Shown here in pieces: positions 1,859 through 12,873 of a DNA stretch of 25,243 nt. Origin of the DNA: a virus; IMG/VR virus record IMGVR_UViG_3300020459_000063, positions 1-25,243 of that record; one strand, given 5' to 3'. A program made the position numbers and the translations under genes. The notes below the pieces were generated by a model, which did no database searches, was not told where the DNA came from, and was given only the letters and a program-made list of their open reading frames with translations. Positions within the stretch are counted from its first letter, which is position 1; each line of letters starts with the position of its first letter.

Positions 1859-3715
1859 CTAATAACTACTAGTCGTGGTATATCCTATACCAGCGTTTGC
1901 TGAGCCTCCTACTAATGTATCAGCCTCAACTGTAACTGAACTGTTTGCAACATCAATATCTAATACTTGATTTCTAATAGGAACAATATCGTTTGAATTA
2001 GGTTTAACCGTAACTTCTATAACTGTTGAAGCTGCACCTCTTACGTTTTCTATATTAGAAACATTTAAAGAGTTTACTTCAACTTTACCTGTTGAGTATT
2101 CTATTGTACCTTGTGTACTGTTAGCATATGATCTTACAGAACCATCATTTCTATATCTTCTTACATTACCTTGTCCATCATCATCTAAAAACCAAATGTT
2201 TGTAGTGTCGCCATCAATTTTAAATCCTGTTGATTCTAAAATACCACCAGAAGCAGAATTGTGACCTGAATGTGGATTGTATAATGCGTTTGCAAAGTTA
2301 ATTGTATATTTTGTAGAACTGCCTAATGTTGGTACAAAAGACTTTCTCATTTTAATTGTAGTTATGTTTGATAAAATACTTTCATCTGTTTCATCAATCA
2401 ATCCTGTTAATTTAGAATATCTAAAAATAGTATCAAATGATTGTAAAGTATTTGCGTTGTAATCTGTTATTGTTGTAACAACGTTTGATTTAATTGTGTC
2501 AGCAGTTTTAGGTGTTGTTGCCTCATTAAACTTAACGTTAGATGTAATTAATATATCTGTTGTTTCAGGATCAATGATAACTGGTGTAACTGAAGCAACT
2601 GAATATTTTTTTAAATCTTTTACTATCTTTTCTTTTGTAGCGTCTGTAAGATTAGAACCACTTGTTGGCAAAATAGAAAGATAAACTCTACCATAGAATG
2701 GCGTTTCAGCGTCTTCACCACCCCAAGCACTAACTGATTGTGTGTTAGCATAAAGTTGTTTTACTTTTGATTTGTAATCTTCTATTGTAACTGCTCTGTC
2801 TTGTGACGCATAAAAATTAGGTGCATTGAATTTTATACTTTGTAAACTTTCAGGTTCAGCACCACCTTGTGCTGATGAGTTAACAGTTGTAGTTACGTCT
2901 GTAAATCCAGAAATAGAACCTGATAGTGTAAATGCAGTTGCACCGTTAGCTTCTGTTTTGTTTGTAACAACATAACTAATACTAATTATGTTACCATCTT
3001 CTAATGATTTACCAATTACACCATCACCAAAGTATATTTCAAATTGACCGTCTTCAGCCTCTTGGCAAAAATAAACTTTTGATGTACTATCTAATTCTGT
3101 TATTGAACTTGCTTTAGTGTATGTGTTTTGTGTTACATCTGAAGCACTATTTTGCACTACAACTTTTATTGTAGTCGTATCTGCTCTGTCACTAGGTATT
3201 AAAAATCTTTGATCTATATCTTGGCTGTCATATGTGTAAGCATAGGTAACATATGTACCTTCGTAAACATTTAAACTTTGTGCTGTGTAAATACCATCAA
3301 TTGGTTGTACAACTTTATCTGATACTGAAACAAACGTGTAAGTTAAACCATCTATTGATGAAGTAAATTTTGTACCTGCAGGAATTGTAATTGAAGCACC
3401 TGTACCATCGTTGATTACTAATTTCAAATCAGCGATTGGTGCTCTAGCAGAGTTAGGTGTGTAACCTACTAATTTAGCCAATGACGCAACACTTGATCTT
3501 AACTGTGCTGTGTCCATAAACATTTCGTTTGCTACGAAGTTTGCATTGTAAGCCAAGTAGTGTGTATTGTAAGCAAGTAGGTCAAGCAATATTGCCATTG
3601 AACTACCTTCAAAGTCGTAATCTTTAAATTCGTTTTGATTTGCTAAAAATCTTTTGAGTGAACCTTTTATATTCTCAAAATCTAATTCTGAAATTTCTAA
3701 TTTGTGTTGTGCCAT
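1859..3715 (-). CDS. gp6: Baseplate wedge protein gp6 (J-like)
   Basis: This 618-residue protein matches the T4 gp6 family (T4 gp6 is 660 residues), which forms the dimeric ring that joins the wedges around the hub. The N-terminus (about 10-70) has the typical FLANQNEFKDYDFEGS and LLAYNTHYLAYNANFVANEMF patterns. The middle (about 285-460) contains the baseplate-J-like region with APNFYASQDRAVTIEDYKS and the following alternating beta/alpha segment. The C-terminal part is beta-rich. It starts 1 base after the gp25 stop, and gp25-gp6 adjacency is a strong context marker. The T4 order 25/6/next wedge gene is kept. I am confident of the family. Confidence 0.93.
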   Translation of the reverse strand: MAQHKLEISELDFENIKGSLKRFLANQNEFKDYDFEGSSMAILLDLLAYNTHYLAYNANFVANEMFMDTAQLRSSVASLAKLVGYTPNSARAPIADLKLVINDGTGASITIPAGTKFTSSIDGLTYTFVSVSDKVVQPIDGIYTAQSLNVYEGTYVTYAYTYDSQDIDQRFLIPSDRADTTTIKVVVQNSASDVTQNTYTKASSITELDSTSKVYFCQEAEDGQFEIYFGDGVIGKSLEDGNIISISYVVTNKTEANGATAFTLSGSISGFTDVTTTVNSSAQGGAEPESLQSIKFNAPNFYASQDRAVTIEDYKSKVKQLYANTQSVSAWGGEDAETPFYGRVYLSILPTSGSNLTDATKEKIVKDLKKYSVASVTPVIIDPETTDILITSNVKFNEATTPKTADTIKSNVVTTITDYNANTLQSFDTIFRYSKLTGLIDETDESILSNITTIKMRKSFVPTLGSSTKYTINFANALYNPHSGHNSASGGILESTGFKIDGDTTNIWFLDDDGQGNVRRYRNDGSVRSYANSTQGTIEYSTGKVEVNSLNVSNIENVRGAASTVIEVTVKPNSNDIVPIRNQVLDIDVANSSVTVEADTLVGGSANAGIGYTTTSSY

Positions 3716-5319: not shown

Positions 5320-6567
5320 ATGTTTAGACTTTGGATAACAATCTTAATATTTTCATTTATATTTTCTGCCGCTGCTGTATTTGCTGAAGAACATGACGTT
5401 TGTAAACATGAACAAAAATATAGTCAGATATGGTACATAAATGGTTGTGATGGTGAAACATTAGAAATCAAAAAAGTAGAACTACCAACATATAACAACA
5501 CATCTAAAAACGAATTACCTGAATGGGCAAATCCAACAGATAAAGTATTGAAATATTATGCTAACAAATATTCTAAAAAACACTCAACAAGAAAAGGTTA
5601 TAAGTTTATAGTTAAGGCAGATGGTGAATACAAAATTTTTGATAAAAATACAACTACAGACAAATTTGTAACTGAACAATTAAATACAACCGCTCTATTA
5701 AGTTATATTGCTTTTGCTGATGGTCAAATTGTAGTAGATCAAAAAACAGAAAAATATAGTAAATATTTTAATGACAAAACTAAATGGACTTCTATGTCAA
5801 TGGGTAAGTCTATTATATCTTATATGACAGGTCATGCTATCTGTAGAGGTCATATATCAGGTATTAACGAAACAATGAATTGGGATATATTTGATAATAC
5901 GTATTATGAAAATGCTAAATTAATTAATGTATTAAACATGGCAAGTGGTAATCCTAAAAACCATAATAGAGATTATAAGAAATGGCCTAACAATAGTACT
6001 ATACAAGGTATTATGAAAAGAGAAATTAAAAATACAACACCAGGTGAAAATGTTTATAATTATAGTAACGTTGATACTAACGTTGTTGCTAGTTACCTAT
6101 TACATAAAATGGGTCACAAAGATTTTAAAAAGTTATTAAATTATTTCTTTAATGAAAAAGTAAACGTACAACATAATGTAAAATTATTTAAACAAGAAAA
6201 CGCTTCAAGTAAAACTGAATCGTTAACTTATGCTTTCTACATAACAAGATATGATTATTTAAGAATTGCTGTTGCAATGTTAGATGATTGGAATAATAAT
6301 ACTTGTGAAGGACAATACTTAAAAGATTTATACGAAAACAAAATAAACAAATTTGATGGACAATATTATGAAGGATCAGGTACAGACGCATTTTCAAACC
6401 CTACTTATTATGCTGGGTTCTTCCATACATATGACAAACCAATATTCGTTATGGACGGTTATGGTGGTCAGACAATTTCAATTGATTTTGAGAACAATAA
6501 AATATATACTACTCATGCCATTCACAGAAACTATGACTGGATGAAATTAGTACACTCTAACTTTTAA
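5320..6567 (+). CDS. Secreted serine hydrolase, class C beta-lactamase/penicillin-binding fold
   Basis: The 415-residue protein starts with a signal peptide (hydrophobic core 4-20, cleavage likely after VFA at about 22), so it should act outside the cytoplasmic membrane. The three signature motifs of the beta-lactamase-related serine hydrolase family are in order: SMGK at 160-163 (nucleophile Ser160, Lys163), YSN at 248-250 and YGG at 381-383. The spacing and the LNMASG segment after the first motif fit class C enzymes, DD-peptidases and related esterases or amide hydrolases. The natural substrate cannot be read from the sequence: peptidoglycan peptides, an ester or a small amide are all possible. 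It ends the first auxiliary operon and overlaps a small minus-strand gene by 21 bases at its 3' end. Confidence 0.82.
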   Translation: MFRLWITILIFSFIFSAAAVFAEEHDVCKHEQKYSQIWYINGCDGETLEIKKVELPTYNNTSKNELPEWANPTDKVLKYYANKYSKKHSTRKGYKFIVKADGEYKIFDKNTTTDKFVTEQLNTTALLSYIAFADGQIVVDQKTEKYSKYFNDKTKWTSMSMGKSIISYMTGHAICRGHISGINETMNWDIFDNTYYENAKLINVLNMASGNPKNHNRDYKKWPNNSTIQGIMKREIKNTTPGENVYNYSNVDTNVVASYLLHKMGHKDFKKLLNYFFNEKVNVQHNVKLFKQENASSKTESLTYAFYITRYDYLRIAVAMLDDWNNNTCEGQYLKDLYENKINKFDGQYYEGSGTDAFSNPTYYAGFFHTYDKPIFVMDGYGGQTISIDFENNKIYTTHAIHRNYDWMKLVHSNF

Positions 6568-7018: not shown

Positions 7019-7276
7019 CTACCTCGTTTTTAATAAGTGTTTTAATTTTTCGTACCAATATATACCACCATCTCGTAGTGACTCATTGGCCTCCCTTAAT
7101 GTTTCAAGCTTCTTAACTAAATCTTTTAGTTGTTTCTTATCTAGTGTCTTTTTACGTTCTACAATCTTCTCTAACTTACTTATAACATTGTCAATCTTTA
7201 TACACGTCAAAGGGGGCACTTTAGGCGCCTTCTTTTTTAGAGAGGATATAGTTATCTTTTTAGGCTTCTTTGCCAT
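7019..7276 (-). CDS. Small lysine-rich coiled-coil protein, 85 residues
   Basis: The product begins with a very basic segment (MAKKPKKITISSLKKKAPK), then has a long helix with heptad-like hydrophobic spacing (about 30-68, VISKLEKIVERKKTLDKKQLKDLVKKLETL), then an aromatic GGIYWYEKLKHLL tail. It is probably a helical oligomer; no function is recognised. AGGAGAA precedes the ATG. A TATAAATA box lies about 50 bases upstream, so it heads the leftward mini-operon with the 25- and 73-residue proteins. Confidence 0.65.
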   Translation of the reverse strand: MAKKPKKITISSLKKKAPKVPPLTCIKIDNVISKLEKIVERKKTLDKKQLKDLVKKLETLREANESLRDGGIYWYEKLKHLLKTR

Positions 7277-7347: not shown

Positions 7348-8133
7348 ATGAATGATGAAATAAAGAATGCTATTGATGTATGTAAAAAAGCACAGCGTAA
7401 TTATGATTTGAATAAAATGGTTTCAGAAAAAGATTTAGAAACCCTTATCTACGTTGCAGCTAACTCACCATCAAAACAAAACGAAACACACTTTAGTTTA
7501 AGAGTATATACTAATCCTAATATTATAAGAAAAATATATAACCGAACAAAGTTATTTACTTTTCAAACTAATACTAAAACAGATAAAATATTTACAGATA
7601 CTAAAAAGAAGTTTGTAACCGATCATAGATATGCTGTAACAAATTCTCAAATACTAGCACCTGTTGTTTTTGTGTATTGTGATGAAACTAAAAATATAAG
7701 AAGTGGTACACACATTGTTGCTACACAACCAAAGGCAACTAAAATAGCAATAGATACTTTAGAAGAACAAAAGAATACATCAATAGGTATATCATCTGGT
7801 CAATTAGTTATGGCTGCAGCTTTACTAGGATATAAAACTGGTTATTGTAGTGCTTTTGAAAGAGATGTAAAAGGCGATAACGTACAAAAATTATTAAAAC
7901 TAGATTCAGAACCTAAACTACTTGTGGGTGTAGGATATCCTCATCCAGATATGACTAGATTAGAACATCCTGAAGTATTTAATAAAGACATAAGTATCAA
8001 AGAAGGTAAACATGGTGATGAAGATAAGAGATGGACTTTTCCATCAATGCTAACTGAAGACCTATATAAAACTCAACACTATGGGTTTGAAAAAGTTGAA
8101 GTATATATTAATGACAAAAGACACAAAAGATAA
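7348..8133 (+). CDS. Nitroreductase-like flavoprotein
   Basis: The 261-residue product resembles the FMN-dependent nitroreductase family. Visible features are an early LETLIYVAANSPSKQNETHF segment (about 31-49; this region normally contacts FMN), and a later SSGQLVMAAALLGYKTGYCSAF segment (about 155-178), the dimer-interface helix with the usual GL..G pattern, followed by LLVGVGYP (about 215). The family catalyses NAD(P)H-dependent flavin reductions or dehydrogenations; the substrate here is unknown. The ATG at 7348 is preferred over upstream starts because those lie before the promoter's start point. It overlaps the next gene (a radical SAM protein) by 23 bases, suggesting a joint pathway. 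Confidence 0.72.
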   Translation: MNDEIKNAIDVCKKAQRNYDLNKMVSEKDLETLIYVAANSPSKQNETHFSLRVYTNPNIIRKIYNRTKLFTFQTNTKTDKIFTDTKKKFVTDHRYAVTNSQILAPVVFVYCDETKNIRSGTHIVATQPKATKIAIDTLEEQKNTSIGISSGQLVMAAALLGYKTGYCSAFERDVKGDNVQKLLKLDSEPKLLVGVGYPHPDMTRLEHPEVFNKDISIKEGKHGDEDKRWTFPSMLTEDLYKTQHYGFEKVEVYINDKRHKR

Positions 8134-9532
8134 ATCACATTTAACAAAGGGTGGACCAGGCGACAAATACCTAGGTGACGGTAAGGTAGATACTAGCCAA
8201 TGGTTTACTCACTCTCATATGTTACCTTGGAAAGGTGGTGAATTTGAAAAGAAAGTTAAAGATCAAAAGATGTTTTTCTGTAGTGCTCCTTTTCAAATGT
8301 TATACACTAATACTAGAGGTAGATATGCACCATGCTCGTGGGCAGAATTAAACAATGAACATTTAGCACCTAGAATACATGACGTTAGCGTAAAAGATTG
8401 GTTTGAGAATAATGAAAACTTAAACAAGTTAAGAGCTGAGATGTTAGATGAAAATTCAGATTTAAAACTTGCAAACGAATGGTGTAGAACTTGTATAAAA
8501 CAAGAAAAAGAATACGGTAGATCAAGGCGACAGGCTTCACTTAAAATACAAACTAATGACTCTCTTATATGGCCTGAATTAAAAAAATCTATAAGAAGAT
8601 ACCAACAAGATATGAAAGGTCATATTAAAGATAGATGTTTTGAAGTACAGATAAAAGTATATGGTAATAAATGTAACCTTGATTGTTTTATGTGTCACCC
8701 TTTTGATTCTACAAAAAGATTAGAAACAATGCGTCACAAAGAACTAGATGGTCAAACTATATTTTCACCACACGTACAAGAATATGCTAGATCAAAAAGA
8801 TCGTTTGATTTAGATAAAGATAGTTTAGAAACAATATCAGATCAAATAGTAGATATAGCACCTTACATCTATGCAATGAAACTAATAGGTGGTGAACCAT
8901 TAGTTATGAAACCATATTATAAGTTACTTGAAAAATTAGTAGAAAAGGCACCAGATGATTGTCAGAAAATGCTTTTAAAATTTCAAACCAATATGCAAAC
9001 TATGAATATGGATAAAATGCAAGTTACAGATTATATTGATAAGTTTGGTACATTTGAGTTTACCGTGTCACTTGATAGTGTTGGAATATACAATAATTAT
9101 ATTAGAAGAAGATCAAATTGGGATGAGATTGTAAACAATATTAAAACCGTTAGACAATACCCTAATGTAAAAATAAATATTAATGGTGCAATATCTTTTT
9201 TAAGTGTGCTTAGATTTTATGAGTTACCTGAATGGTATGATAATAATATAAATTTGTTTAAGGGCTTTGATAGAGAAAGTATGATTAACTGGTCTAACAT
9301 AAGAAGTCCTGCAAAATTAGCTGCAAACGTATTACCTGATAAACTCAAACAAGAACTGATACCTAAATATGAGAAGTGGCCAGATATACAACAAGTATTA
9401 CGTGAAGACAATAATGGTTTAGATTATAAAGAAACTATTAATTATTTGTTGACTATAGATAAACGTTATAAAGGAACTAAATGGGAGTACAACTTATTTG
9501 ATGTATTTCCTGAACTAAAGGAGTATTACTAG
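8111..9532 (+). CDS. Radical SAM protein with N-terminal cysteine (SPASM/twitch-like) module
   Basis: A CX3CX2C motif at Cys188, Cys192 and Cys195 (KCNLDCFMC), which binds the SAM-cleaving [4Fe-4S] cluster, places this 473-residue protein in the radical SAM superfamily. MKLIGGEPLVMKPYY at about 255-270 fits the GGEP SAM-binding motif. Before the core lies a cysteine module (FFCSAPF, then GRYAPCSWAE, then EWCRTCIKQ, about residues 55-145), like an auxiliary Fe-S SPASM/twitch domain but at the N-terminus. The start at 8111 lies inside the end of the nitroreductase gene; an earlier in-frame start exists at 8081. Its substrate is unknown; this family includes peptide- and sugar-modifying enzymes. 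Confidence 0.82.
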   Translation: MTKDTKDKSHLTKGGPGDKYLGDGKVDTSQWFTHSHMLPWKGGEFEKKVKDQKMFFCSAPFQMLYTNTRGRYAPCSWAELNNEHLAPRIHDVSVKDWFENNENLNKLRAEMLDENSDLKLANEWCRTCIKQEKEYGRSRRQASLKIQTNDSLIWPELKKSIRRYQQDMKGHIKDRCFEVQIKVYGNKCNLDCFMCHPFDSTKRLETMRHKELDGQTIFSPHVQEYARSKRSFDLDKDSLETISDQIVDIAPYIYAMKLIGGEPLVMKPYYKLLEKLVEKAPDDCQKMLLKFQTNMQTMNMDKMQVTDYIDKFGTFEFTVSLDSVGIYNNYIRRRSNWDEIVNNIKTVRQYPNVKININGAISFLSVLRFYELPEWYDNNINLFKGFDRESMINWSNIRSPAKLAANVLPDKLKQELIPKYEKWPDIQQVLREDNNGLDYKETINYLLTIDKRYKGTKWEYNLFDVFPELKEYY

Positions 9533-9533
9533 C

Positions 9534-9562
9534 TTGACTTTGTGTTAAGTTTGTGTTACAAT
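9534..9562 (+). promoter_or_regulatory. Strong sigma-70-like promoter
   Basis: TTGACT at 9534-9539, a 17-base spacer and TACAAT at 9557-9562, each hexamer one base from consensus. It begins 2 bases after the stop of the radical SAM gene at 9532. The start point about 7 bases downstream coincides with the ATG of the lipoprotein gene at 9569. Confidence 0.7.
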
Positions 9563-9568
9563 ATAAAG

Positions 9569-9703
9569 ATGAAAATTATACTTATATCTTTGATACTGTT
9601 TCTAACAGCATGTTCAACTACAGGTAAACCTATCAAAGAACATAGATGGATTGTATCTGCTGCTAAACAAGTTATATCTCCTGGTTTTGGTTGGGGGAAA
9701 TAA
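9569..9703 (+). CDS. Small lipoprotein, 44 residues
   Basis: ATG at 9569 to TAA at 9701-9703. The product starts MKIILISLILFLTACSTTG: a short basic N-terminus, hydrophobic core and a lipobox LTAC with Cys15 as the lipidation site, leaving a mature peptide of about 30 residues (ending SPGFGWGK). No ribosome site is visible, and the predicted transcript start coincides with the ATG, so it may be translated from a leaderless mRNA. The stop overlaps the next ATG (TAATG). Small phage lipoproteins include outer spanins and exclusion proteins; this one is unassigned. Confidence 0.62.
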   Translation: MKIILISLILFLTACSTTGKPIKEHRWIVSAAKQVISPGFGWGK

Positions 9704-10026
9704 TGGATCCTAAAGATTTAAAAATTAAACCTAGGTGTCTAACATATCAACCTAAAAGTTATCATAAACCAGCTGCATATACAGCAGACGGTTATATGTT
9801 GCCTTGTTGTTGGTTAGATGATCCTAAAAATGACCATAGTGTAGCGGAAGTATTTCATTTAAAAGATGAACACCTTGCACTAAAAAATGTTGACAAGTTA
9901 GAAGACATATTTGGGTCTAAAGAGTGGGAACACTTCTTTGATTCACTACTAAATAATCCAAGTTGTGCTCCAAAACAATGCCAATACAAGTGTGGTAATT
10001 TGGAAAAAGATACTTATAAAAAATGA
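9703..10026 (+). CDS. Free-standing SPASM-like Fe-S protein
   Basis: The 107-residue product has cysteines spaced like a SPASM auxiliary-cluster domain: Cys12, then GYMLPCCW (Cys35-Cys36), then Cys88, Cys93 and Cys97. GxxxPCC is the typical SPASM entry. No radical SAM core is present, but the next gene, overlapping by ATGA, encodes one without a cysteine-rich tail, so the two probably form one enzyme. The ATG at 9703 is used rather than the in-frame TTG at 9691 because of the TAATG overlap and the purine-rich GGGGGAAA just upstream. It resembles the N-terminal module of the 8111 protein in order and spacing. Confidence 0.68.
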   Translation: MDPKDLKIKPRCLTYQPKSYHKPAAYTADGYMLPCCWLDDPKNDHSVAEVFHLKDEHLALKNVDKLEDIFGSKEWEHFFDSLLNNPSCAPKQCQYKCGNLEKDTYKK

Positions 10027-10781
10027 GCCATTTAACAGACTTTTATATTCAAAATCAAAAACTATCCTCACCTAATATGGATCTATCACATAGATGTATA
10101 TTACGTTGCCCACAATGTTTACGACAAAAGGTAGAAGGTCTACCTAGAATAGCAAGATCATTTGATATAGGTAAAAATGAGTTTAGAAAAATATTAAACT
10201 ATTACGAAAATCAAATTACTTTCTGTGGTCAAATATCCGACCCAATATATCATCCTGACTTTCTTGCATTTTTAGAAATGATGGACGGTCTAGGTAAAGG
10301 TTTAAGAGTTGCAACTAATGGTACTAATACAAAAGGTATGGATACGAAATGGTGGGAAAAAGCATATAGTTATGGTCTAGGAGAAAATTGTTGGTACTTT
10401 GGTGTTGATGGTTTAGATGAGAAATCAGAATTGTATCGTATAGGTTCTAATTTCAAACAAGTATGGGAAACTATGAAAATGGGAGTACAAGCAGGACACC
10501 CTATCGTATGGCAATTTATTATCTTTGGTTATAATGAACATGAAATAGAACAAGCAAAAGAGATTGCACATAAAGAAGGCATAACATTATTATTAATAAA
10601 AACAAATAGAGGTTTTGATCCTAGAAGTAGAACATTAAGAAAAAACGTACAAGAAGCATACGCTAACTTTAATGTACCTAGTGATAAGAATAGAGTTAAA
10701 AAAATAAAAAGTGAAGAATACTTTAACGTTACACCAGAACTAAAACGTTGGAGACAAGTTAGAGAAGGAGCATTGAAATGA
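10023..10781 (+). CDS. Radical SAM enzyme core
   Basis: The 252-residue protein has the CX3CX2C motif at Cys25, Cys29 and Cys32 (RCILRCPQC) in the usual N-terminal place, followed by the expected barrel pattern: ITFCGQISDPIYHPDF (about 65-80; takes the place of the GGEP motif), LRVATNGT (about 100, strand 3) and WYFGVDG (about 127, strand 4). It lacks a C-terminal auxiliary-cluster domain, which the preceding small SPASM-like protein may supply. It overlaps both neighbours by ATGA, so the three genes 9703, 10023 and 10778 are translationally coupled. The missing glutamate of GGEP is odd and may mean altered SAM contact. Confidence 0.85.
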   Translation: MSHLTDFYIQNQKLSSPNMDLSHRCILRCPQCLRQKVEGLPRIARSFDIGKNEFRKILNYYENQITFCGQISDPIYHPDFLAFLEMMDGLGKGLRVATNGTNTKGMDTKWWEKAYSYGLGENCWYFGVDGLDEKSELYRIGSNFKQVWETMKMGVQAGHPIVWQFIIFGYNEHEIEQAKEIAHKEGITLLLIKTNRGFDPRSRTLRKNVQEAYANFNVPSDKNRVKKIKSEEYFNVTPELKRWRQVREGALK

Positions 10782-11638
10782 ACTTGACATATGGAAATCA
10801 AACAGTTGAATTTTGGACAAATATAAAAGCAGATATAATGAAATCACCACACAAAGCATTAGCATTAAAAGATATTGACTTTGATGATGACTTTTTACCT
10901 AAACAAGTTGTAGTATCATTATCAGGTGGTTGTGATTCATCATCAGCAACATACTTAACATTAAAACACTTTCCACAAATAGAGATATTTCCTTTTATGT
11001 GTAATGACGTAAACGCTCCTAAAGACGCTGACGCAGCTAGAGAAATAGTTGAATACTTACAAAAGAAGTTTCCTAATGGTAAGTTAAATGACATAACAAT
11101 CAAAGACTTTAACGATAGAGAAGTAGGTGGTTGGTGGCCTAAAGCAAAAGAGATGATGAAAGTAAATCAAAAGTTATATGGTAACATGTCTGTAACTGCT
11201 GTTGCAAAGATTTTACAACTAGATAAACTTATACCTGACTTTATGAAAGAGTTTAAAGGTCCTATTAGACTAGATGGTATGACAGCAAACCCACCTGTTA
11301 ATATACGTATGGCATTTGGTGATTATGTAAAAGAAAGATTTCCACAATATACATTTACTGCTAAAGATATTGAAAGAGTACAAGGAGAAACAAGACGTGA
11401 TAGTCCAAATAAACCTAACATAACATATAACGTATATCAACCTTATATAAATGTAAATAAAAGATTTGTTGCTGGTGTATTTAAAGAAGAAGGTCTTATG
11501 AAAGACTTATTCCCTATAACTAGAAGTTGTGTAGGTTCTGGTAAAGAAACTAAAGACTTTACTGCATGGTGTTGGAAGTGTTTCTGGTGCTATGAAAAAG
11601 CGTGGGCGTTTAATCTACCAAATACCCATATGGCTTAA
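10778..11638 (+). CDS. PP-loop ATP pyrophosphatase, QueC-like
   Basis: The 286-residue product has a PP-loop SGGCDSS at 49-55 (VVVSLSGGCDSSSATYL), which binds and activates ATP for adenylation of a substrate, and a C-terminal zinc-type cluster Cys251, Cys265, Cys268, Cys271. This combination, and the acidic stretch between, resemble QueC (7-cyano-7-deazaguanine synthase). However the length is larger than QueC (about 220-230), the cysteine spacing differs and no queD or queE is in the window, so a related amide- or nitrile-forming or tRNA/peptide-modifying ATPase is equally possible. It overlaps the upstream radical SAM gene by ATGA and the downstream convergent gene by 29 bases. Confidence 0.72.
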   Translation: MNLTYGNQTVEFWTNIKADIMKSPHKALALKDIDFDDDFLPKQVVVSLSGGCDSSSATYLTLKHFPQIEIFPFMCNDVNAPKDADAAREIVEYLQKKFPNGKLNDITIKDFNDREVGGWWPKAKEMMKVNQKLYGNMSVTAVAKILQLDKLIPDFMKEFKGPIRLDGMTANPPVNIRMAFGDYVKERFPQYTFTAKDIERVQGETRRDSPNKPNITYNVYQPYINVNKRFVAGVFKEEGLMKDLFPITRSCVGSGKETKDFTAWCWKCFWCYEKAWAFNLPNTHMA

Positions 11639-12419
11639 ACTGACTTTCATACAAAGTCATAAACTTTGCTTTAAACAAAGTAGTATTTTCAAAATAAGGT
11701 AAATACTTTATCTTACTAGGTATAAAAGGACTCTTATAAGTATCTTTTATTTTTTCAGGTACAAACATGTTTAATAAGTCCTCATGTGTACACTCCTCTA
11801 ACCATAAATTATATACGGTTGTATTATACGTTTTATAATACGAAGCAATATGTTCATTAAAAAAGCGTATCTGCATTAAAAAAAATTCTAAATGGCGATC
11901 ATCAAATTTAAACTTAATGTTGTATTCTTGTATTGTTGATTTTAATACATCATCATCTGTTGCTGACATAAAATGCCAAGAGTGATGTTGTCCATCTTCT
12001 TTACCATACTTTCTTAATTGTTCTGCTATAATATTATGAAACGTAAAAGATACAAAGTGTTTCCATATGTTTCTACGTCTTAATAAAGCAATACGATAAC
12101 CATGATAAAAGTCTTTAAACCAATCAAACAAATAAGTGTAATGAGGTTTACTTGGCATATCCACATGCCTATACAATTGAATACTATGAAATATGCTAAA
12201 CATATCTAAACCAAAAGTATCTCTTATATCTTCAAATAACTTAATTTTCTTTAGATAAGATTGGTCATAGGTTTCAGGACTAAAAAACTCTGAGCTTTTT
12301 ATTTCAGGTCCTACCATACCATGTTTACGATAACCTTGTCTTATATAATCCCCAATATAATGGGAACCAGCACGTGGCATAGATATTAATACAGATACAT
12401 CTGCTTTATCGTAAATCAT
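11610..12419 (-). CDS. Sulfotransferase-like protein
   Basis: The N-terminal VLISMPRAGSHYIGDYI (about 10-26) is a PAPS 5'-phosphosulfate-binding loop (P-R-x-G-S), and ALLRRRNIWKHFVSF (about 111-125) fits the 3'-phosphate-binding strand and helix. Both are hallmarks of P-loop sulfotransferases, which move sulfate from PAPS to hydroxyl or amino groups of sugars, lipids or peptides. The 269-residue length suits a single-domain enzyme. The ATG at 12419 has CGGAG 5 bases upstream and is better than the in-frame TTG at 12434. It converges on and overlaps the PP-loop gene by 29 bases. The acceptor is unknown; cell-surface glycan is a guess. Confidence 0.72.
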   Translation of the reverse strand: MIYDKADVSVLISMPRAGSHYIGDYIRQGYRKHGMVGPEIKSSEFFSPETYDQSYLKKIKLFEDIRDTFGLDMFSIFHSIQLYRHVDMPSKPHYTYLFDWFKDFYHGYRIALLRRRNIWKHFVSFTFHNIIAEQLRKYGKEDGQHHSWHFMSATDDDVLKSTIQEYNIKFKFDDRHLEFFLMQIRFFNEHIASYYKTYNTTVYNLWLEECTHEDLLNMFVPEKIKDTYKSPFIPSKIKYLPYFENTTLFKAKFMTLYESQFKPYGYLVD

Positions 12420-12473
12420 AGAAACTCCGCACAAGTTAACATCAAAGTATTCGCACAGTTAAGCGAAAAATTT

Positions 12474-12572
12474 TTAAAGGATATCAAACGTTCCTAGTAT
12501 CATACAAACTATAACATAGCCTATATAACCTAATAACAAATAACCTAGTATCTTTTCCCATATACTAAACAC
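12474..12572 (-). CDS. Membrane micropeptide, 32 residues, GTG start
   Basis: GTG at 12570-12572 overlaps the last codons and TAG of the IscA gene, with GGGGAA about 8 bases upstream, and the frame closes with TAA at 12474. The product starts MFSIWEKILGYLLLGYIG and continues as one uninterrupted hydrophobic helix with a short FDIL end. Protein-like composition and the coupled start support it; GTG and the small size weaken it. It is probably an inner-membrane peptide of unknown role. Confidence 0.5.
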   Translation of the reverse strand: MFSIWEKILGYLLLGYIGYVIVCMILGTFDIL

Positions 12573-12873
12573 TAAACGATTCCCCACAGCCACAACTGCT
12601 TTTACTATTAGGATTAGTTATTTTAAATTCAGACGAAAATGTGTCTTCTACCCAATCAAGCGTAGTACCTAATAAGTAAACCTCCAACTCTAAACTAGCA
12701 ATGAGAATATCACCTAATAGACAATCAGTATCTTCCCTTGTATCAGTAGTTTCCCATTTGTATTCAAAGCCTGCACATCCACCACCCTTAATATCTAATC
12801 TCACATAACGAGTGCCTGCCTTATTTGCTATGTAAGATAATCGTTTGATTGCGTTTTCTGTTAGCTCTAGCAT
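12565..12873 (-). CDS. A-type iron-sulfur carrier, IscA/HesB family
   Basis: The 102-residue product has the three conserved cysteines of the family: Cys33 in GGGCAGFEY and the C-terminal CGCG motif (Cys95, Cys97), in a protein of the usual length (about 105). The IDGFxDxxF-like core is represented by VRLDIKGGG and LEVYLLGTTLDWVEDTF. A-type carriers take up iron or Fe-S clusters and pass them to target enzymes. Its neighbours are a mini-lipoprotein upstream and the gp5 gene beyond; three cluster-binding proteins are encoded 2-5 kb away on the other strand. IscA-type genes occur in marine T4-type phages, with unclear use. Confidence 0.88.
   Translation of the reverse strand: MLELTENAIKRLSYIANKAGTRYVRLDIKGGGCAGFEYKWETTDTREDTDCLLGDILIASLELEVYLLGTTLDWVEDTFSSEFKITNPNSKSSCGCGESFSV

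Follow-up and report, generated by a model that had tools for sequence, protein, structure and literature searches.

We analyzed a viral record of 25,243 bases (IMG/VR record IMGVR_UViG_3300020459_000063, hereafter the window), in which a cassette of six plus-strand genes, named A to F, is positioned between baseplate genes at 7348-11638. The cassette encodes a nitroreductase-family flavoprotein (A), two radical S-adenosylmethionine (SAM) proteins (B and E), a small lipoprotein (C), a stand-alone SPASM-like domain (D), and a PP-loop ATPase/ligase (F). Our best explanation, to which we give about an even chance, is that the cassette is an optional module in a variable site of the baseplate region and builds or alters an unusual surface sugar. 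More tentatively, D-E-F may represent an undescribed, virus-centred step, in which a split radical SAM/SPASM enzyme and a virus-specific QueC-like ligase would generate a previously unknown sugar in amidated or conjugated form (or a link between sugar and protein), with which marine T4-like phages change phage recognition at the surface. Surface-modification islands of pelagimyophages are already known; the apparently new part is the D-E-F unit at a second, baseplate-side site, for which we found no description in the openly accessible portion of the literature.

Linkage of D, E, and F in a variable baseplate-region site

The baseplate gene of the window (1859-3715, minus strand) is closest to those of Pelagibacter phage Mosig (60.5%), Pelagibacter phage HTVC008M (55.5%), and Methylophilales phage Melnitz (52.8%). 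By this kinship, the window derives from a T4-type phage of the pelagimyophage kind, akin to phages that infect SAR11, although any host assignment on this basis would be presumptive. SAR11 phages are among the commonest marine viruses, and the result bears on how they compete at the cell surface. The stretch from a conserved 85-residue gene on the left to H, an A-type iron-sulfur (Fe-S) carrier gene, on the right is empty, partial, or filled across 53 viral loci. In the empty sites, for example L129, L132, L136, and L144-L150 among many relatives, H lies directly beside the left-border gene, and the partial sites hold only the convergent neighbour G (L114/L115), which frequently adjoins the cassette yet occurs there without D-E-F, or only B, A, and G (L131). 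The empty and partly filled stretches in relatives mark it as a cargo site, whose tightest unit is D-E-F.

D-E-F is collinear in every close-relative contig spanning the region, even where the identity of F falls to ~50%, and across these relatives E and D are 80-96% identical, with the exception of extra D copies. Such copies are tandem duplicates (L017-L020 and L050), the first ~58-67% and the second 81-88% identical to the D of the window. Among 71 viral loci with F, several of which are the same population from different samples, D/E is located within 6.5 kb in 51 and B in 48, and the six loci with neither are mostly at contig ends. The genes are under purifying selection, with a ratio of nonsynonymous to synonymous substitution rates of 0.08-0.15 for D and E and of 0.2-0.4 for A, B, and F; E (84-96% identical in relatives) and D are the most constrained.

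Natural fusions connect the same genes. In L074/L075/L081, F and E form one chain of 458 residues, with F at 11-240 (299.6 bits) and E at 266-445 (252.4 bits); F is fused to B in L072/L073; and in L079, F is fused to a domain of ~100 residues (252-348 of 354). In L057-L061, L092, and Mosig, this domain is a neighbour of DegT aminotransferases or part of the same chain. These fusions of F with E, with B, and with the DegT-linked domain support a pathway shared by all of them together with D. The sequence-only reading of the window had proposed radical, flavin, and ATP-activating enzymes that cooperate in a possibly undescribed pathway, and the three fusions strengthen that proposal. The ~100-residue domain also occurs alone, in addition to its occurrence on DegT aminotransferases and on F (L092, 3537-3845; L192, 9672-9992), and may be a docking or carrier domain.

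The opposite view, that unrelated auxiliary genes have gathered at an insertion hot spot and each acts alone, draws on the many empty relatives, the partial sites, and the variation of A and B. Independent occurrence had been named beforehand as evidence against a common product, and it is observed in part: A and B occur without D-E-F, and D-E occurs without F. However, the order D-E-F is kept from near-identical F proteins to those only ~50% identical, and the fusions largely refute a loose cargo for D-E-F. We consider this view improbable for the cassette overall, with A and C as the members for which it is still possible.

D and E appear to be the two parts of a single radical SAM/SPASM enzyme, D being the predicted auxiliary-cluster subunit split off from E, because the genes are adjacent, the cysteines of D are conserved, and fused homologues exist. 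E carries the cluster motif CILRCPQC and itself lacks an auxiliary domain; in D, the cysteines of KPxC, PCC, and C-x3-C are kept in 17 diverse aligned sequences. For 60 of the 72 D genes, an E gene lies within 450 bases on the same strand, in either gene order. In Desulfobacterota-type genomes, the D-E homologue is one chain, such as L178, where residues 11-190 match the E profile (119 bits) and residues 256-333 match the D profile (16 bits), and to such fused forms Pfam assigns radical SAM plus SPASM. An E homologue in L049 with a D-like part at motif level only (2.4 bits) was dropped in favour of L178. Lone E-D or D-E pairs exist in metagenome-assembled genomes (MAGs) of Hyphomicrobiales and Desulfobacterales, in which a profile search detected no F; in L157, L159, L160, and L161, the stand-alone pair has no sugar or phage genes in view. 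In the proposed two-subunit enzyme, E would generate the 5'-deoxyadenosyl radical and D would supply the auxiliary Fe-S cluster or clusters. With the split form, it can be tested directly whether a SPASM domain works as a separate subunit.

The PP-loop protein F compared with QueC, Cap9, and QatC

The matches of F to PF02540 and PF06508 are both barely above the cut-offs and cover the nucleotide-binding part only; F also matches phrog_1550 ('QueC-like'). We modelled F with AlphaFold2 from 31 diverse F sequences (predicted local distance difference test score, pLDDT, 92.2; predicted template modelling score 0.91), and this model replaced an earlier one from 12 close sequences, which had a pLDDT of 68 and vague fold matches. 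The fold matches include MesJ/TilS (Z-score 14.2), LarE and NcsA (~12), Cap9 (11.8), QueC (11.7), and QatC (10.7). The modelled fold, together with the phosphate loop SGGxDS, which is present in 30 of the 31 sequences including that of the window, indicates that F is a member of the PP-loop ATPase superfamily. With QueC, Cap9, and QatC (PF06508), it shares both this loop and a C-terminal C-xn-CxxCxxC metal site, and the structural alignments to all three extend through the site of F, C251-x13-C265-x2-C268-x2-C271, whose four cysteines are invariant in the 31 sequences. Relative to these proteins, F has a 40-residue N-terminal extension. Its own conserved set comprises SGGxDS, K144, NPP at 171-173 (GMxxNPP), E204, ERR, K228, E273, and W276.

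The earlier designation of F as a QueC-like ATPase is thus correct for the PP-loop fold and the layout of the metal site but does not hold for the substrate motifs of QueC. These motifs, YxQxHxxE, VPxRN, and YPDC, contain key residues that matter by mutation (PMC13329287), and each is found in 0 of 31 F sequences. TIGR00364 scores 19 bits on F, against a cut-off of 150, and the canonical zinc motif C(x)8CxxCxxC is exact in one of the 31 sequences, with the variant C(x)6-20CxxCxxC in all of them. The Cap9 motifs Y/FxQ(x)5E and YxDC occur in two and none of the 31, respectively, and the QatC motif C(x)19CGxCxxRR in none. Furthermore, F adjoins radical SAM genes instead of queD/queE, a CD-NTase gene, or qatB. 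PADLOC, applied to seven genes of the window, returned no CD-NTase match and only a weak QueC match (15.3 bits), and matches to defence-system models were very weak. WbpG and other N-acetyl sugar amidotransferases, which are PP-loop enzymes of surface-sugar pathways, are possible role analogues of F; as WbpG itself F was rejected, the cysteine motif being present in 0 of 31 sequences.

A 7-deazaguanine chemistry, in which F as QueC and E as QueE would alter phage DNA or tRNA, was one of the three products put forward in the sequence-only reading. It agrees with the PF06508 and phrog_1550 matches, the metal-site layout, and the QueC fold match. Against it stand the missing QueC substrate motifs and the E protein, which matches no QueE model up to an E-value of 0.1 and has the canonical CxxxCxxC spacing. 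In addition, no QueD/PTPS, FolE, or TGT was detected in six large phage records of 98-171 kb, which may be fragments (five with F and one, Mosig, without), and the control genomes were positive. We regard this chemistry as very improbable.

The F family was found in viral contigs and in one virus-like MAG contig (L158, Rhodobacteraceae bin). A profile search with positive controls detected no F in 681 further bacterial genomes, nor did a motif-pattern scan of ~85,000 cellular species, which is not exhaustive because L158 has F. In isolate phages, tblastn detected neither F nor D. That a ligase family centred on viruses occurs in fusions with radical SAM enzymes suggests a chemistry elaborated by phages and not simply captured from a host. 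From the PP-loop and the QueC-like metal site, with the fold and motifs as described, F is predicted to use ATP to activate a carboxylate (or amide) on the substrate or product that it shares with D-E, and then to join an amine or ammonia to it.

Proposed surface-sugar substrate and competing explanations

Two close relatives (G001 and G002) contain a second cassette beside the tail-fibre genes. Among other genes, it comprises a paralogous E-D pair and genes for a further radical SAM protein, a nitroreductase, a DegT aminotransferase, a carbamoyltransferase of the NodU type, an NAD-dependent epimerase, and a methyltransferase. A similar cassette is borne by the isolate Mosig, and the DegT match is present in all six large phage records (G003 has the same match). 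At more distant loci, F occurs together with DegT, carbamoyltransferase, and glycosyltransferase-like genes. The fused bacterial E-D homologues belong to a conserved gene cluster that also encodes GSCFA proteins, several glycosyltransferases, a phosphatase, and an ABC transporter. In published work on pelagimyophages, glycosyltransferases and radical SAM cassettes are described within the host-recognition clusters, and a change of the host O-chain against co-infection was proposed (PMC7029224). Because of the tail-fibre cassettes, the fused bacterial clusters, and these published clusters, a sugar or glycan substrate is favoured by guilt by association, with a probability of about one half. 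The surface-sugar change is accordingly the best supported of the three products named in the sequence-only reading. In one close relative, a B12-binding radical SAM protein (PF02310 and PF04055; L192, 14536-16386) is encoded next to the sugar cassette at the tail-fibre genes.

The metabolic cassette of Mosig EXVC030M (MT647606, 61-71 kb) resembles that of the window in its E-D pair (E 33% identical), its nitroreductases, and its radical SAM genes, and each is a variable island of a SAR11 T4-like phage. The Mosig cassette differs in having no F; the cassette of the window differs from the Mosig and pelagimyophage clusters in its site, the baseplate region, and in lacking an aminotransferase, a carbamoyltransferase, and glycosyltransferases.

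BtrN, NeoN, and SpeY oxidise or epimerise aminocyclitols, and steps of the BtrN type precede sugar aminotransferases. These enzymes also consist of a radical SAM core and an auxiliary cluster domain, but here the auxiliary domain is encoded by a separate gene before the core gene, with no sequence family match. In the route that we propose, the substrate would most likely be a sugar or a sugar-linked intermediate, which E-D would oxidise or epimerise and F would then amidate or otherwise ligate, while A (flavin oxidoreductase) and B (the second radical SAM enzyme) might add optional redox steps. The rest of the route would be encoded in the second, tail-fibre cassette with its DegT aminotransferase, carbamoyltransferase, methyltransferase, epimerase, and glycosyltransferase-like genes, and the product would decorate the host envelope or the virion, thereby changing phage recognition.

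Several points weigh against the surface-sugar explanation. The cassette of the window itself contains neither a glycosyltransferase nor a sugar aminotransferase, the gene context is indirect, and no cassette enzyme has a characterised close relative. The Z-scores of F are too close to separate a QueC-like from a TilS- or LarE-like chemistry in the model. A and B are not constant members. Moreover, radical SAM/SPASM enzymes act more often on peptides than on other substrates, and most known SPASM enzymes modify peptides.

The last point favours a modification of protein or peptide, in which E-D and F would act on a phage structural protein (tail fibre or baseplate) or on a host protein; the location of the cassette among baseplate genes is consistent with this. 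F would then join a small group to a peptide, as shown for Cap9 and proposed for QatC, with both of which F aligns through the metal site. Cap9 joins deazaguanine to the N-terminus of a protein (PMC13279940), and QatC is thought to act likewise (PMC13329287). However, no conserved small precursor open reading frame (ORF) accompanies D-E-F; C, the sole small ORF that the cassette has in the window, does not occur in many relatives with D-E-F, and on this presence pattern we rejected it as the precursor of a ribosomally synthesized and post-translationally modified peptide, which leaves the remaining product of the sequence-only reading weak. The fused bacterial E-D homologues stand among glycan genes and not peptides, and phages free of the cassette retain the same baseplate genes. 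Altogether, we judge protein or peptide modification unlikely, though the likeliest of the alternatives.

A further explanation, that the cassette makes a small redox cofactor or alters a membrane lipid in the manner of LarE, which transfers sulfur for a cofactor, or of the radical SAM enzyme tetraether lipid synthase, appears improbable to us. The structural neighbours of F include LarE and TtuA/NcsA, the only plausible solved-structure match of E is tetraether lipid synthase (26.8 bits), and the site is bordered by a gene for an A-type Fe-S carrier. Nevertheless, the four cysteines of F follow the spacing of the QueC metal site and not the three-cysteine motif of LarE, and the larger annotated cassettes hold sugar genes, with no linked lipid or cofactor genes.

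Cassette members, neighbouring genes, and regulatory signals

All six ORFs are open and tightly packed (Table 1), and the place, order, and overlaps given in the sequence-only reading were confirmed (the overlaps are 23, 1, 4, and 4 bases), as were the nitroreductase and the two radical SAM proteins, with A, B, and E scoring above the Pfam cut-offs. A is the usual core partner; it is shifted behind F in L036/L052, and diverged nitroreductases occur in its place in L039/L040-type loci. B is a member of the NF033640 twitch radical SAM proteins, with the cluster motif CNLDCFMC (CxxxCxxC), and is absent from L014, L015, L017-L020, L050, and L051. Its longest ORF begins at 8081; the likelier start, backed by relatives, is the ATG at 8111, which produces a 23-base overlap with A. 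C is present in some relatives only; it lies between D and E in L017-L020, and there is no room for it in L005 and L008-L012.

Table 1. Coordinates of the cassette genes and flanking features in the window
Feature	Position	Strand	Description and matches
Left border gene	7019..7276	-	85 residues; conserved; 53 viral loci
A	7348..8133	+	Nitroreductase-family flavoprotein, 261 residues; PF00881 1.3e-10, 42.2 bits (cut-off 23.5)
B	8111..9532	+	Twitch-domain radical SAM protein, 473 residues; NF033640 1.2e-82, 278.1 bits (cut-off 170); PF04055 44.8 bits (cut-off 29.5)
C	9569..9703	+	Small lipoprotein, 44 residues, optional; LTAC lipobox, weak lipobox match PF08139; longest ORF from 9542
D	9703..10026	+	Stand-alone SPASM-like domain, 107 residues; SPASM (PF13186) 17.3 bits, below cut-off 21.5; 1-base overlap with C
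E	10023..10781	+	Radical SAM core, 252 residues, no auxiliary domain of its own; PF04055 8.6e-8, 33.0 bits (cut-off 29.5); 4-base overlap with D
F	10778..11638	+	PP-loop ATPase/ligase, 286 residues; PF02540 25.4 bits, PF06508 22.5 bits; 4-base overlap with E
G	11610..12434	-	Convergent neighbour; resembles a sulfotransferase by eye only, with no match to Pfam or PDB profiles
H	12565..12873	-	A-type Fe-S carrier (IscA/SufA/ErpA-like); borders the variable site on the right; TIGR00049 84.1 bits

The gap between B and C contains a promoter-like site (TTGACT-17-TACAAT). The region is not enriched in such sites relative to shuffled sequences (31 found, 34.5 expected), the T4 late promoter TATAAATA has six matches compared with 5.1 expected by chance, and the promoter and terminator scans yielded no informative signal. 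The Rfam search found nothing.

The sulfotransferase that had been assigned next door (G) was not confirmed, as neither Pfam nor solved structures provide a match. By eye, G has the look of a P-loop sulfotransferase, with PRAGSHY near the N-terminus, and it evolves fast (25-66% identity). H is a possible Fe-S supplier; its gene, among the baseplate genes, is also kept in phages without the radical SAM cassette. On the other side, the plus-strand gene at 5320-6567 encodes an exported serine hydrolase related to class C beta-lactamases, with a weak solved-structure match (8rlj, E 0.004); it adjoins the site in most relatives and evolves fast, at 36-90% identity.

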